A model generated the notes under the pieces. The model was not told the DNA's origin and searched no databases. It saw only the letters and a list, made by a program, of their open reading frames with translations. Shown one piece after another: positions 13,062 through 18,940 of a DNA stretch of 38,872 bases; position 1 is the stretch's first letter, and each line of letters starts with the position of its first letter. The stretch is from Acrocarpospora phusangensis (GTDB lineage Bacteria > Actinomycetota > Actinomycetes > Streptosporangiales > Streptosporangiaceae), in NCBI RefSeq assembly GCF_016862995.1, contig NZ_BOOA01000077.1, positions 1 to 38,872 on the forward strand. Direction: 5' to 3'. A program made the position numbers and the translations under genes.

Positions 13062-14042
13062 TCAGCCCGACAGCATGTCCGCGGTCAAGTTCGCCTCCGT
13101 GTTGGGCAGGCCGAGGTCCTGGGCGCGTTTGTCGGCCATCGCGAGCAGGCGGCGGATGCGCCCGGCGATCGCGTCCTTGGTCAGCGGGGGGTCCGCGATC
13201 TGGCCGAGCTCCTCCAGCGACGCCTGCTTGTGCTCGACCCGGAGCCGGCCCGCCACCACCAGGTGCTCGGGGGCCTCCTCGCCGAGGATCTCCAGGGCCC
13301 GCTGCACCCGGGCCCCCGCCGCCACCGCCGCGCGGGCGGACCGGCGCAGGTTGGCGTCGTCGAAGTTGGCCAGCCGGTTGGCGGTGGCCCGCACCTCGCG
13401 GCGCATCCGGCGCTCCTCCCAGGCCAGCACGCTGTCGTGCGCGCCCAGCCGGGTCAGCAGGGCGCTGATCGCGTCGCCGTCCCTGACCACCACGCGGTCC
13501 ACGCCGCGCACCTCGCGGGCCTTGGCGTGGATCTTCAACCGGCGGGCGGAGCCGACCAGGGCCAGCGCGGCCTCCGGCCCCGGGCAGGTGACCTCCAGCG
13601 ACATGGACCTGCCCGGCTCGGTCAGCGAGCCGTGCGCCAGGAACGCCCCCCGCCAGGCCGCCTCCGCGTCGCAGGTGGCCCCCGAGACCACCTGGCGGGG
13701 CAGGCCGCGGACCGGGCGGCCGTGGTTGTCGATCAAGCCGGTCTGGCGGGCGAGGGCCTCGCCGTCCTTGTAGACGCGCACCACGTACCGGGAGCCCTTG
13801 CGCAGCCCGGCGGGCGCCAGCACGAGCACCTCGGCCTTGTGGCCGAAGACCTCGCCGATGTCCTTGATGAGCCGGCGCGCGGTCACGTTGGTGTCCAGCT
13901 CGGCCTCGATCACGATCCGCCCGCCGACCAGATGCAGGCCGCTGGCGAAGCGCAGCAACGTGGACACCTCGGCTTTGCGGCAGCAGGGCTTCAGCACGGG
14001 AAGGCGACTCAGTTCATCCTTCACAACGCCCGTCATCGCCAT
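13062..14042 (-). CDS. whiA: DNA-binding protein WhiA
   Basis: The 326-residue protein has the WhiA order: an N-terminal [21 protein letters not shown] segment and a degenerate LAGLIDADG-type (homing-endonuclease-like) fold ([21 protein letters not shown]), then a C-terminal helix-turn-helix ([25 protein letters not shown]). In sporulating actinomycetes WhiA acts with WhiB to switch from hyphal growth to sporulation septation; the gene is also present in non-sporulating Gram-positives. ATG 14042 has GGAGGA 8 nt upstream; an in-frame TAG 15-18 nt before it rules out a longer start. It is part of the conserved rapZ-yvcK-whiA set, here 246 bp after yvcK. Confidence 0.97.
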
Positions 14043-14288: not shown

Positions 14289-15233
14289 TCACCGCTTCTC
14301 GCGGAAAATCTCGTCCAGGACCTGGGCAAGACGGGGTGCATCGTGCCGCGGAGACCCGTCAGAGGCCCCTACATCCGCCAAAACCAGACGCCCGCCGAGG
14401 GCCACCACGGCCTTCTCCAGCTCGGTCGGGTCGCCGGTCACCGAGGTGTCCGCGACGACGGCGTCCACCAGCAGGGTGGGGGCGTGCTGACGCAGCACCT
14501 CCAGGTGCTCCTGGGGGGAGAACCCGTCGGTCTCGCCCGGCTGGGGGGCCAGGTTGAGGATGACCAGGCGGCGGGCGCTGGTCGCGCACAGGGCGCGGGC
14601 CAGCTCGGGGACCTTCAGGTGCGGCAGCACGCTGGTGAACCAGGAGCCGGGGCCGAACACCACCCAGTCGGCGTCGTGGATGGCCCGCACCGCCTCCGGC
14701 GAGACCGGCGGATCGGGCGGCACCAGCGAGATGGCCTGCACCCGCCCGGGGGTGAGCGCGCAGGCGACCTGGCCGCGCACGGTGGTGACCAGGCCGTCCA
14801 GCTCCACCTCGGCCTGGATGTCCAGCGGCACGGCGGCCATCGGCAGCACCCGCCCGTGCGCGCCCAGCAGCCGGCCCACCCACTCCAGGGCCTGCACCGG
14901 ATCGTCCAGCAGCTCCCACAGGGCCACGATCAGCAGGTTCCCGACCGCGTGCCCGTGCAGCTCGCCGCCGCTCCTGAAGCGGTGCTGCACGACCCGGCTC
15001 CAGGTCTGCCCCCACTCGTCGTCCCCGCACAGCGCGGCCAGCGCCATCCGCAGGTCCCCCGGTGGCAGCACCCCCAGCTCCCGCCGGAGCCGCCCGCTGG
15101 ACCCGCCGTCGTCCGCCACCGTGACGACGGCCGTCAGATCGGCCGTGACCCTCCTGAGCGCCGACAGGGACGCGTGCAGCCCATGGCCACCCCCTAACGC
15201 GACAACTTTCACTTCGGGGGCCGCATCACTCAC
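14289..15233 (-). CDS. yvcK: YvcK family protein (gluconeogenesis factor, CofD-like)
   Basis: The 314-residue protein has the YvcK/CofD nucleotide-sugar-binding fold: VALGGGHGLHASLSALR near the N terminus, VTVADDGGSSGRLRRELG (binding loop), HAVGNLLIVALWEL, and FGPGSWFTSVLPHL. YvcK binds UDP-sugars and affects cell-wall precursor supply and growth on gluconeogenic carbon in Bacillus and mycobacteria (CuvA). Start is GTG 15233. In the intact operon that GTG would overlap the rapZ stop; here the IS605-like element inserted immediately upstream has replaced the native upstream sequence, so the AGG 7 nt before the GTG comes from the element. Confidence 0.95.
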   Translation of the reverse strand: MSDAAPEVKVVALGGGHGLHASLSALRRVTADLTAVVTVADDGGSSGRLRRELGVLPPGDLRMALAALCGDDEWGQTWSRVVQHRFRSGGELHGHAVGNLLIVALWELLDDPVQALEWVGRLLGAHGRVLPMAAVPLDIQAEVELDGLVTTVRGQVACALTPGRVQAISLVPPDPPVSPEAVRAIHDADWVVFGPGSWFTSVLPHLKVPELARALCATSARRLVILNLAPQPGETDGFSPQEHLEVLRQHAPTLLVDAVVADTSVTGDPTELEKAVVALGGRLVLADVGASDGSPRHDAPRLAQVLDEIFREKR

Positions 15234-15313
15234 CGGTACCTACAGTGTGCAGACTCTGTCCTTCAGGGCGGAACTGGAATGCGGAACGGTCCCACATGGC
15301 AGCCTCCCGGTTC

Positions 15314-15335
15314 TGTCGGTCGTGGCGGCTAACTT
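15314..15335 (+). promoter_or_regulatory. Candidate leaderless promoter of the tnpB remnant
   Basis: TGTCGGTC, 8 nt, TAACTT, then 7 nt to GTG 15343. This differs by one base from the TGTC(A/G)GTG-N8-TANNNT promoter seen at uvrC and uvrA, and it has the same distance to the start codon as at uvrC. Evidence is pattern only. Confidence 0.35.
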
Positions 15336-15342
15336 GTTCGGC

Positions 15343-15927
15343 GTGTCCCGCTACCGGCTGCAGCCGACGTCCGCCCAAGAGGCGGCGCTGCTGGAGCACT
15401 GCGCGGTCAAGGCGGGCGATGCGCGCCGCCTGTCCCGCCACATGGGCGAGGTCCGCGTCCCCAAGGTCGGCTGGGTGCTCTTGCGATGGTCGCGGCCGAT
15501 ACCGGTCGGAGTGAAGTCCTACCGGGTGACTCGCGACGCCTCGGGTCGCTGGCTCATCGCCTTCGCCGCCATCCCCGCCCCCGCCCCAGCGCCGGGAAAC
15601 GGAGAGATCGTCGGCGTGGACCGGGGTGTGGCGGTCTCGGCGGCCCTGCCGAGTGGACAGCTGCTGAAGGCGCCCGGCCGGGTGGTCAAGGTCAATCCCG
15701 CCTACACCAGTCAGCGGTGCTGTGCGTGCGGGATCGTGGACCGGGAGGCGCGCGAGAGCCAAGCCGTCTTCCGGTGCAGGTCCTGCGGATACGCCGGCCA
15801 TGCGGACGTGAACGCGGCCAGGGACATCGCACACGCGGCAGGACATGCCGTGTCCGCGCGGGAAGGGCCACGGGCTGCCGGGCCGGTGCACCGCGAACCT
15901 CAACGCGATCGCCTCCTAACGGGGTAG
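15343..15927 (+). pseudogene. tnpB: TnpB remnant with two internal in-frame deletions
   Basis: The frame from GTG 15343 gives 194 residues; TnpB is usually about 370-400. The N terminus YRLQPTSAQEAALLEHCA is normal, then about 60-70 residues are missing before RRLSRHMGEVRVPKVGW. RuvC-I is kept (IVGVDRGVAVSAAL). After LLKAPG about 130 residues are missing, including the RuvC-II Glu (the usual EDL motif). The zinc ribbon (CCACG...CRSCG) and the last RuvC Asp (HADVNAARDI) are kept. With no RuvC-II Glu it should not cut DNA. The frame is still open, so the deletions are either clean or recent; an alternative is selection for a non-nuclease protein, but it is much shorter than known TnpB-derived repressors. 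Confidence 0.88.
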
Positions 15928-15934
15928 ACGCTGT

Positions 15935-15971
15935 TGGAATCCCCCGCTGTTTCACGAGGGGAGGATGTCAA
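15935..15971 (+). ncRNA. Right end of the IS605-type element / 3' part of the omega-RNA scaffold
   Basis: GGAATCCCCC, a weak stem-loop, then GAGGATGTCAA is the right end common in TnpB elements; it doubles as the 3' end of the guide-RNA scaffold. In this family the guide is the flank just past TCAA: here TCGCGGCCTACATCGCGATG, which is the antisense of the 3' end of rapZ. The TCA of TCAA reads on the other strand as TGA and serves as the present rapZ stop codon. Confidence 0.7.
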
Positions 15972-16843
15972 TCGCGGCCTACATCGCGATGGCTCACTTG
16001 CACCTCCATGCCGCGCTCGCGCAGACGGCCGCCCAGTTGCTCAGCCATGGCCACGCTGCGGTGCCGGCCGCCGGTGCAGCCGACCGCGAGGGTGGCGTAG
16101 CTCTTGCCCTCGCGGGTGTACCCCGCGGCGATGACGCCGAACAGGTCCTCGTAGCCGTCGAGGAACTCCTTCGCGCCGGGCTGGCCCAGCACGTACTCCC
16201 GGACGGGGGCGTCCAGGCCGCTCATGGGGCGCAGTTCCGGCACCCAGTGCGGGTTCGGGAGGAAGCGGCAGTCCACGACGAGGTCGGCGTCCACCGGCAG
16301 GCCGTACTTGTAGCCGAAGGAGACGATGTTGACCTTGAGGCCGGGCCGGTCCTCGCCGCCGAAGAAGGAGACGATCTTGCTCCGCAGCTCGTGCACGTTG
16401 AGCTTGGAGGTGTCGATGACCAGGTCGGCGTTGGCGCGGACCTCGCGCAGGATGCCGCGCTCGCGGTCGATGCCGTCCACCAGGCGGCCGTCGGCCTGCA
16501 GCGGGTGCGGCCGGCGCACGTTCTCGAAGCGGCGCACCAGGGCGTCGTCGCTGGCCTCCAGGAAGACCACGCGGACCCCGACGCCGCGGCCGTCCAGCTC
16601 CTCGATGGCCGCGTTCAGGTCGGTGGTGAACGCCAGCGAACGCACGTCCACCACGGCGGCCACCTTGTCGGCGGCCAGGTTGACCCGCCCGGCCTCCTCC
16701 GCCAGGGAGAACAGCAGTCCCGGCGGCAGATTGTCGATCACGAACCAGCCCAGGTCCTCCAGGGCCTTCGCGGCCGTGCTGCGCCCGGCCCCGGACATGC
16801 CCGTGACGAGCACGAATGCGGGCTCGCCGGTGCTCTCGCTCAT
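15968..16843 (-). CDS. rapZ: RNase adapter protein RapZ / YvcJ-family nucleotide-binding protein
   Basis: The 291-residue protein begins [21 protein letters not shown] (Walker A) and continues [11 protein letters not shown], as in all RapZ proteins. The C-terminal half has [25 protein letters not shown] and [18 protein letters not shown], the conserved RNA/metabolite-binding part. In E. coli RapZ directs decay of the GlmZ small RNA and senses glucosamine-6-phosphate; the job in actinomycetes is not settled. The ATG overlaps the uvrC stop as ATGA, so translation is coupled. The last codon and the stop (GAT TGA) now come partly from the inserted element; before insertion the end was probably GAG TGA. 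Confidence 0.96.
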
Positions 16844-18738
16844 CTCTCTCCCTGCAACGCCGCCACGATCGCCTCAGCCGTCGACGGACCGATTCCCGGA
16901 ACCTCGCGGATCTCCTCGGCGGTGGCGTCACTCAACCGTTTCACGGATCCGAAGTGTCGCAGAAGCGCCTGCCGTCGCGCCGGGCCGAGACCAGGAACCT
17001 CGTCCAGGGCGCTCTCCTTGAGCGTTCGCGACCTCTTGGCTCGATGGTAGGTGATGGCGAAGCGATGCGCCTCGTCCCGGACGCGTTGCAGCAGGTAAAG
17101 GCCCTCACTGGAGCGGGGCAGGATGACCGGCTGGTCGTCGCCGGGCAGCCAGACCTCCTCCAGCCGCTTGGCCAGCCCGCAGACGGCCACGTCGTCCACG
17201 CCGAGCTCGGCCAGGGCCCGGTGGGCGGCCGCGGCCTGCGCGGGCCCGCCGTCCACCACCACCAGGTTCGGCGGGTACGCGAACTTGCGCGGCCTCCCGG
17301 TCTCCGGGTCGATGGGTTCCCCGACGGGCTCGCCGCCGAGTTCGCCGGTGGCGCTGCGCTCCTCCAGGTAGCGCTTGAACCTGCGGGTGATGACCTCGTG
17401 GATGGAGGCCACGTCACCTTCCGCGCTCTTGATCTGGAAGCGCCGGTACTCGCTCTTGCGGGCCAGCCCGTCCTCGAAGACGACCATGGAGGCGACCACG
17501 TTGGTGCCCTGGATGTGGGAGACGTCGTAGCACTCGATCCGGAGCGGCGCCTGGTCGAGTTCCAGCGCGTCGGCGATCTCCTGGAGGGCCTTGCCGCGGG
17601 TGGTCAGGTCGCTGGAGCGGCGCAGCTTGTGCTGGGTGAGGGCCTCTTTGGCGTTGCGTTCGACGGTCTCCATCAGGGACTTCTTGTCGCCGCGCTGGGG
17701 CACCCTGACGTCCACCCGGGCGCCGCGCTGCTCGCCGAGCAGCTCCAGGACCGCGTCGTGGTCGGGCGGCAGGGCCGGGACGAGGATCTCCCTGGGGATC
17801 TCGGCCTCGGAGTACATCTGGAGCAGGAAGTGCTCCACGAGCGCGCCGGGCGAGGTCTCCTCCACCTTGTCGACGACCCAGCCGCGCTGGCCGCGGATCC
17901 GGCCGCCGCGCACGTAGAAGACCTGCACGGCCGCTTCCAGGGGGTCCTCGGCCAGGGCGATGACGTCGCAGTCGGTGGCGTCGCCGAGCACCACGGCCTG
18001 CTTCTCCAGCGCCTTCTGCAGGGCCTGCACGTCGTCCCTGAGGCGGGCGGCCCGCTCGTACTCCTGGGTGGCGGCGGCCTCCCGCATGGCCTGTTCGAGG
18101 CGTTTGATGAACCTGGTGGTGTTGCCCGCCATGAAGTCGCAGAAGTCCTCGGCGAGGGCGCGGTGCTCCTCGGGCGTCACCCGGCCGACGCAGGGCGCCG
18201 AGCACTTGTCGATGTAGCCGAGCAGGCACGGCCGCCCGATCTGGCCGGCCCGTTTGAAGACGCCGGCCGAGCAGGACCGGATGGGGAAGACGCGCAGCAG
18301 CAGGTCCACGGTCTCGCGGATGGCCCAGGCGTGCGAGTACGGCCCGAAGTAGCGGGTGCCCTTGCGTTTGGCCCCGCGCAGGACCTGCACACGGGGGAAG
18401 TCCTCCCCCATGGTGACCGCGAGGTACGGATACGACTTGTCGTCCCGGTACTTCACGTTGAAGTGGGGGTCGAACTCCTTGATCCAGGAGTACTCGAGCT
18501 GGAGCGCCTCCACCTCGGTGCGGACCACCGTCCAGTCCACCCGGGCGGCGGTGGTGAGCATCGACTGGGTCCGGAAATGCAGGCTCGCGAAGTCCGCGAA
18601 GTAGGAGTTGAGCCGCTGCCGCAGGCTCTTCGCCTTGCCCACGTAGATCACCCGGCCGCCGGGGTCGCGGAAGCGGTAAACCCCTGGCGACTCGGGAATC
18701 GATCCGGGCGCCGGTCGGTAGGTTGCCGGATCTGCCAC
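16840..18738 (-). CDS. uvrC: Excinuclease ABC subunit UvrC
   Basis: The 632-residue protein carries an N-terminal GIY-YIG nuclease (GVYRFRD...[14 protein letters not shown], about residues 17-45) for the 3' cut, a Cys-containing segment (CSAPCVGRV), a UVR motif region near residue 200 that contacts UvrB, an RNase H-like nuclease for the 5' cut ([19 protein letters not shown]), and tandem helix-hairpin-helix motifs at the end ([26 protein letters not shown]). I chose GTG 18738: it gives the usual VADPATYRP start and lies 7 nt after a -10 box, making a leaderless mRNA. The longer frame to 18906 crosses that promoter and a hairpin. Confidence 0.97.
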
Positions 18739-18745
18739 GCCCAAA

Positions 18746-18767
18746 AGCCTACTGGCCCGCACCGACA
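18746..18767 (-). promoter_or_regulatory. RecA-independent DNA-damage (PafBC-type) promoter of uvrC
   Basis: On the minus strand: TGTCGGTG, 8-nt spacer, TAGGCT. This matches the actinobacterial RecA-NDp consensus TTGTC(A/G)GTG-N8-TANNNT, bound by the WYL activator pair PafBC after DNA damage. Seven bases separate the -10 from GTG 18738, so transcription should begin at or a few bases before the start codon. Confidence 0.8.
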
Positions 18768-18784
18768 TTCCCGGCTGGAAAGGC

Positions 18785-18821
18785 CCGGCCCCGCGTCCCT
18801 GGGCAAGGGACGCGGGGCCGG
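18785..18821. terminator. Strong hairpin terminator between the Rieske gene and uvrC
   Basis: A perfect 16-bp GC-rich stem (18785-18800 with 18806-18821) with a 5-nt loop. It lies 120 nt after the Rieske stop on the minus strand and just before the uvrC promoter, so it insulates uvrC from upstream transcription. There is no T-run, as is common in actinomycete terminators. Confidence 0.8.
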
Positions 18822-18940
18822 TACGCGCCGAGAGAGCTTCCCGTAGCCGCGAGCAGCCCTCCACCCCAGGAGTACCGGCGCGCGCGAGACCCCCATCCGG
18901 CCACACAGCGGATGGATCCCGCAGTCAGGGGCCGATCAGG

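Follow-up and report, generated by a model that had tools for sequence, protein, structure and literature searches.

A decayed TnpB-only IS200/IS605-type element in the former rapZ-yvcK overlap of Acrocarpospora, and the placement of its relatives on antisense start and stop codons

At the rapZ-yvcK junction of Acrocarpospora phusangensis, a 738-bp stretch (15234-15971) is a mobile element, and it lies inside what was, in the genus Acrocarpospora, a 4-nt GTGA overlap of the two genes (positions are those of the window, the whole 38,872-nt stretch of DNA analyzed here). Relatives of this element sit, in most of the mapped cases, exactly on the start codon, the stop codon, or the start-stop overlap of antisense genes. 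As read from the DNA, insertion at such codon sites spares both reading frames; that is, it repairs itself. We consider it very probable that the rapZ-yvcK site fits this pattern of the element family, the full explanation being a self-repairing insertion together with an old insertion and a loss, selection, and homing as its inferred parts. TnpB elements are among the commonest bacterial mobile genes, and how they persist without harm to the host is still a question; the base-exact link between target motif and start and stop codons would give it a simple, testable answer, namely, insertion with built-in repair of the interrupted frames.

On the minus strand, rapZ now ends ...GGC CGC GAT TGA, with the TGA (15970-15968) lying within the terminal TCAA of the element, and yvcK starts with the GTG at 15233. 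When 15234-15971 are removed, the minus strand reads GGCCGCGAGTGAGTGAT, the joint falling between GA and G of the last sense codon of rapZ; the rejoined gene then finishes with G-R-E-stop, its TGA sharing a GTGA with the GTG start codon of yvcK. The overlap between rapZ and the neighboring frame that we take to be uvrC is likewise 4 nt (16840-16843), and the frame beyond yvcK is presumably whiA. The element is oriented antisense to the operon, 3' of the sequence TCAC. A search of the window with Rfam at gathering scores gave no match.

Features of the rapZ-yvcK junction in the window
Feature	Position	Strand	Basis
Element, decayed, TnpB-only IS200/IS605 type, 738 bp	15234..15971	+	Base-exact empty sites in relatives; full-length A. 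corrugata copy at the same base
TCAC target (TAM), left flank	15230..15233	+	Minus-strand GTGA is the yvcK start codon plus the ancestral rapZ stop
Left end of element, degenerate form of ...CCTCCAGCGTGGA...	15234..15262	+	Alignment to A. corrugata
tnpB remnant, 194-codon open frame from GTG	15343..15927	+	Pfam Cas12f1-like_TNB, E 2e-16
Right-end hairpin, ending GGATGTCAA; TCAA at 15968-15971 is the source of the rapZ stop	15931..15971	+	Sequence and folding; TCAA in 84/90 relatives
rapZ, present stop from element	15968..16843	-	Sequence; relatives
yvcK, start codon retained	14289..15233	-	Sequence; A. corrugata homologue matches YvcK model TIGR01826
uvrC (longest frame), 4-nt overlap with rapZ	16840..18906	-	Frame; presumptive gene name
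whiA	13062..14042	-	Frame; presumptive gene name

All three element-free Acrocarpospora genomes (G001, G003, and G004) read GAGTGAGTGA at the joint, and in the other two of the five, that of the window and that of Acrocarpospora corrugata, the element is present at the identical base. These empty sites, together with the full-length copy in A. corrugata, support the interpretation of element and junction given in the first-pass annotation, which had been made from the sequence alone. Its placement of an IS605-type element exactly in the rapZ-yvcK overlap was right to the base, as were both element ends and the TCAC on their left; the GTGA overlap that it rebuilt by removing the element is also found in the element-free relatives, and the 4-nt coupling style that it saw at rapZ/uvrC and the derivation of the present rapZ stop from the terminal TCAA can both be read directly from the window. 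The empty-site joint that it had predicted occurs in all three element-free genomes except for the next base, which is A there instead of T, an ordinary yvcK substitution. The further statement that the insertion uncouples yvcK-whiA holds for the overlap itself, which is lost; for expression it is a prediction from sequence.

More widely, we fetched relatives by RapZ and obtained 80 loci, 75 of which contain both genes. A GTGA overlap with YvcK aligned from its first residue is present in 7 of the 75 (A. pleiomorpha, A. catenulata, and five Herbidospora), and if other N-terminal lengths of YvcK are permitted, the rapZ stop lies in an RTGA opening into YvcK in up to 27. The overlap is not family-wide, since the two genes are mostly further apart in the remaining loci of the 75. 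The spacing varies widely, for example, about 1055 bp in L079 and 788 bp in L064 (extrapolated from the alignments of loci L007 to L086).

The A. corrugata copy is 1357 bp long (L007, 3858-5214) and contains a TnpB frame of 402 codons with three Pfam TnpB domains over the cut-off, including OrfB_IS605 and the zinc ribbon (TNB). The window copy aligns with it over its full length except where 264, 345, and 12 bp are missing; the deletion joints in the tnpB remnant lie at 15402/15403, 15666/15667, and 15821/15822. All three deletions are multiples of 3 and leave the frame open, which would happen by chance about 1 time in 27. The remnant keeps only TNB, having lost the HTH and OrfB_IS605 domains that the intact A. 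corrugata copy contains. The VEDL stretch of the A. corrugata TnpB, which we take to be the RuvC glutamate motif, is among the deleted sequence, so that a complete RuvC with its acidic residues is absent from the window copy. At the right end, TCAA follows a hairpin, as in IS200/IS605 elements, and the target is present once, with no target duplication, as expected of IS200/IS605 insertion. The left end folds at -4.8 kcal/mol in the window and -11.3 kcal/mol in A. corrugata, the mean over 90 mapped elements being -6.2 (range -13.7 to -1.1; RNA energies, calculated with no shuffled controls). In kind, the window copy is a TnpB-only IS200/IS605-type element in a decayed state. Such elements (IS1341-like) share with the present family a fixed tetranucleotide in the left flank, the lack of target duplication, a hairpin at the right end and perhaps one at the left, the TCAA right end, and the TnpB domains of the intact copy.

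A search for the Y1 transposase TnpA gave no match in the genome of the window and one to six matches in each of the four other Acrocarpospora genomes, so the element is probably immobile in its present host. The missing TnpA bears on present mobility and not on membership in the family, because TnpB-only members carry none themselves. A search for the element elsewhere in this genome, as the first-pass annotation had proposed for its ends, found no close copy, the nearest (contig C25) having 70 to 77% DNA identity.

Some TnpB derivatives, the TldR proteins, are retained, inactivated regulators with a guide RNA and target of their own. The open frame left by the three deletions, and a dN/dS of 0.31 between the window and A. 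corrugata copies, would fit a shortened TnpB retained in the window for a new, nuclease-free role. That ratio, however, takes in the branch of the intact A. corrugata copy, and on the window branch the changes number 12 of 186 usable sites at codon position 1, 12 of 182 at position 2, and 17 of 149 at position 3, which suggests weak constraint (the count uses one outgroup, L120, read out of frame in its first codons). For a comparison with TldR, the window copy offers a TnpB that is internally deleted and under weak constraint. We regard a new, nuclease-free role as very improbable.

At 0.40, the dS of the two copies lies near the values for rapZ (0.31), yvcK (0.36), and uvrC (0.35). This closeness to the host values speaks for a single insertion predating the species split and is not what separate arrivals would lead one to expect. 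A tree of the flanking genes, however, unites A. corrugata with A. pleiomorpha and G003 (support 94) and leaves the window outside, so that an empty clade lies between two occupied species and a single insertion requires a loss. We therefore weighed whether the window's species and A. corrugata gained the element independently of each other at this one base, with homing from transferred DNA as a conceivable route. The placement of the empty A. pleiomorpha/G003 clade beside A. corrugata favors such a history; the branch concerned is short (0.012), which counts against it and is at the same time the reason that two insertions keep a place, albeit a doubtful one. The reading that we prefer is a single insertion that would predate the split of the window's species and A. 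corrugata, with a presumed clean loss in the A. pleiomorpha/G003 line.

To place this site among others of its kind, a strict left-end pattern was run over 297 genomes of the family and matched in only 4, so relatives were found by their TnpB protein. Across the order, this gave 150 matches in 78 of 345 genomes. We mapped 104 of the 150, these being the best 112 by E-value minus 8 (fragments, contig ends, and further copies of one genome), from 64 genomes. Both ends could be placed at 90 of the 104 loci, in 56 genomes; the other 14, with unclear ends, were dropped. The mapped elements are 1320 to 1390 bp long. The left flank is TCAC at 58 of the 90 loci, TCAT at 31, and TCAA at 1, and the right end is TCAA in 84 and CCAA in 6, one site being counted in two genomes (L224 and L228) and contributing two of these six. 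TCAY is the complement of RTGA, and on the strand of the gene the target thus reads RTGA. Loci L116, L117, and L118 have sequences resembling a left end; no GGATGTCAA right end lies within 2500 bases of them, and they could be short, nonautonomous derivatives.

We classified each insertion site with a home-made gene caller run on the rejoined flanks, blind to the joint. Among the 90 joints, 17 fell in RTGA overlaps, 25 on stop codons, 18 on start codons, 18 elsewhere in intergenic DNA, and 12 within genes, whereas the 5585 other RTGA sites in the same flanks were distributed as 65, 97, 122, 674, and 4627, respectively. Sixty of 90 elements were thus exactly on an antisense start, stop, or overlap, compared with 284 of 5585 other RTGA sites, and the difference persisted when only nonintragenic sites were considered (60/78 versus 284/958; P = 2e-16). 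Restriction to the 60 loci whose left ends are clearest gave 12 overlap, 20 stop, 10 start, 13 intergenic, and 5 intragenic. The shares differed under a cruder classifier used before, which assigned 24 of the 90 joints to overlaps, 17 to stops, and 25 to starts, versus 66, 77, and 294 of 5059 other sites. The peak is one base wide: an antisense start lies at offset 0 in 35 loci and an antisense stop at offset 0 in 42, the next commonest offset occurring in 2 loci in either case, and sense genes gave no offset peak at the joint of the 90 mapped loci.

The same phase was found without a gene caller, the right flank being antisense coding at 60 of 103 loci and in stop phase at the joint in 49 of the 60 (P = 2e-14), and the left flank antisense coding at 61 of 90 and in start-codon phase in 51 of the 61 (P = 8e-16). 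Expressed as relative occupancy per 100 null sites, the values are 0.26 within genes, 2.7 to 4.9 at other intergenic sites, 12 to 16 at starts, 17 to 35 at stops, and 26 at overlaps, an excess of about 5- to 10-fold at codon sites over other intergenic RTGA sites. The ratio of boundary to other sites was higher for elements than for null sites in antisense gaps (44:6 versus 194:168), convergent gaps (6:3 versus 37:102), and divergent gaps (10:4 versus 51:222).

Because TCAY is the complement of RTGA, the target can itself be punctuation: on the template strand, it can correspond to a start codon (ATG or GTG with A following), to the stop codon TGA, or, in an RTGA overlap, to both. The left flank preserves the start codon, and the right-end TCAA, which reads TTGA on the gene strand, provides the upstream gene with TGA in the codon of its former stop, changing at most the third base of the last sense codon. 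In all 42 stop-type cases, the gene does gain TGA at the same codon from the TCAA of the element; 26 of them keep the last residue, and the other 16 have a different one, in each through the third codon base only. None of the 6 CCAA-ended elements is at a stop, compared with 42 of the 84 that end in TCAA (P = 0.03), consistent with CCAA being unable to supply TGA. For annotation, this means that the stop codon of a gene may belong to the end of a transposon; work on gene regulation in these bacteria has to reckon with antisense elements at operon junctions.

Several causes may be considered for the excess at codon sites over other intergenic RTGA sites. Selection would be expected to remove most insertions elsewhere, and it is possible that selection does everything, any TCAY being hit and insertions at start and stop codons surviving since nothing is broken there. 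The strong depletion within genes (12/90 versus 4627/5585), the readability of both frames, and the absence of the six CCAA-ended elements from stop sites all fit such a history, which we regard as possible but less likely than not; other intergenic RTGA sites, however, should be equally harmless, and yet boundary sites are fuller in every gap type. Part of the excess could come from selection against promoter damage. The base-exact peak in all gap types might instead reflect targeting at the moment of insertion, with TnpA preferring gene boundaries through a longer motif, transcription, or DNA structure. We looked for a longer motif and found none beyond RTGA, positions around it being like those of null boundary sites save for some excess of A at -1, and we consider targeting unlikely.

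Start sites in particular might be favored if the element gave the downstream gene a ribosome-binding site. The complement of the A. corrugata left end has GGAGG six bases before the yvcK GTG, and the element there may supply yvcK with a good ribosome-binding site. Over the family, however, motifs of at least 4 bases were found at 10 of 35 start-involving sites versus 9 of 55 others (P = 0.19), a difference that does not support ribosome binding as the reason for start sites; we consider that reason quite improbable. We propose that conservation of the codon matters. At a codon site the TAM is a conserved codon, so TnpB-guided homing into empty alleles may outlast homing at an intergenic TCAY, which is free to drift, and such a difference would account for the codon-site excess; if homing at codon TAMs does contribute, long residence at one site would be explained as well. 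The 10 start-only sites between divergent genes are a case that conserved guides cannot explain. A bolder form, that this IS200/IS605 lineage lives on gene punctuation, its right end re-creating the stop, its codon TAM kept by selection, and TnpB able to drive indefinitely into empty alleles from a stable home, is conceivable, but we advance it with reserve.

Several known systems invite comparison. In the studied model IS608, the left-hand tetranucleotide is TTAC and the right-hand one TCAA (PMC5934647), whereas the present family has a TCAC or TCAT target and most of its mapped insertions on antisense start or stop codons. The IS608 tetranucleotide TTAC, whose complement is GTAA, likewise covers a stop codon on the other strand. 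IStrons, in which an IS605 or IS607 element is fused to a group I intron and spliced from RNA, are likewise described as insertion sequences made harmless to the genes that they enter (PMC4227781); they rely on RNA splicing, and the present family relies on the match of its DNA ends with codons. On Borrelia plasmids, IS605B remnants lie beside lipoprotein genes, with end sequences overlapping the 3' ends of the genes (PMC2775950); these are stem-loop remnants at a few genes, and in the available portions of that account a start or stop bias such as that seen here is not described. In homing, or gene drive, an empty site cleaved by TnpB regains the element through recombination (PMC8612924; PMC11870625). 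Homing of this kind would apply to an intact copy, and the idea that the TAM is a conserved start or stop codon is ours, the accessible parts of these two papers not describing it. In the open-licence literature, as far as its text is accessible, we found no earlier description of start- or stop-codon insertion by IS605 or TnpB elements, which is weak evidence of novelty.

Individual sites were also checked. The two nearest copies in A. catenulata (TnpB 80% identical) lie in the pflB/pflA GTGA overlap and on the maf start codon, a GTG. The Maf protein matches TIGR00172 from its first residue, a start that the census gene caller had missed, and the maf joint is unbroken in three of the four other Acrocarpospora genomes (the window's, A. 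corrugata, and G003), the alignment of the fourth stopping short of it. The pflB/pflA site has no usable empty counterpart: homology in G003 and G004 stops about 5 bases beyond the joint, and pflA does not follow pflB there (L279 and L280). Proteins read from the kept start or to the restored stop (in one set, 2 of 10 had no Pfam match) correspond to known operon pairs: at overlaps, pflB/pflA, an OppC-type permease and OppD-type ATPase, a response regulator and histidine kinase, and a PfkB kinase and iolB; and, in addition, two ABC ATPases.

As a control, ten regions among 23 plasmid records were inspected for their annotation; one showed the pattern, two were without annotation, and seven were without the pattern, most of them without resolved ends. 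The positive case is a Methylovirgula plasmid annotated by others (L293, 1973-3727), in which an element with tnpA and tnpB separates a P-type ATPase gene from ccoS; its left flank is TCAT, and its TTAA right end holds the ATPase stop (ends read by eye). Divergent TnpBs in Acrocarpospora provide anecdotal material, with 34 loci, of which 8 had no right end found, several were matches inside tnpB, and several were duplicates. In the genome of the window itself, a divergent TnpB (31 to 34% identical) on contig C21 (L091, 505-1851) lies in an ATGA overlap between a histidine kinase and a response regulator gene, as named from reading their proteins.
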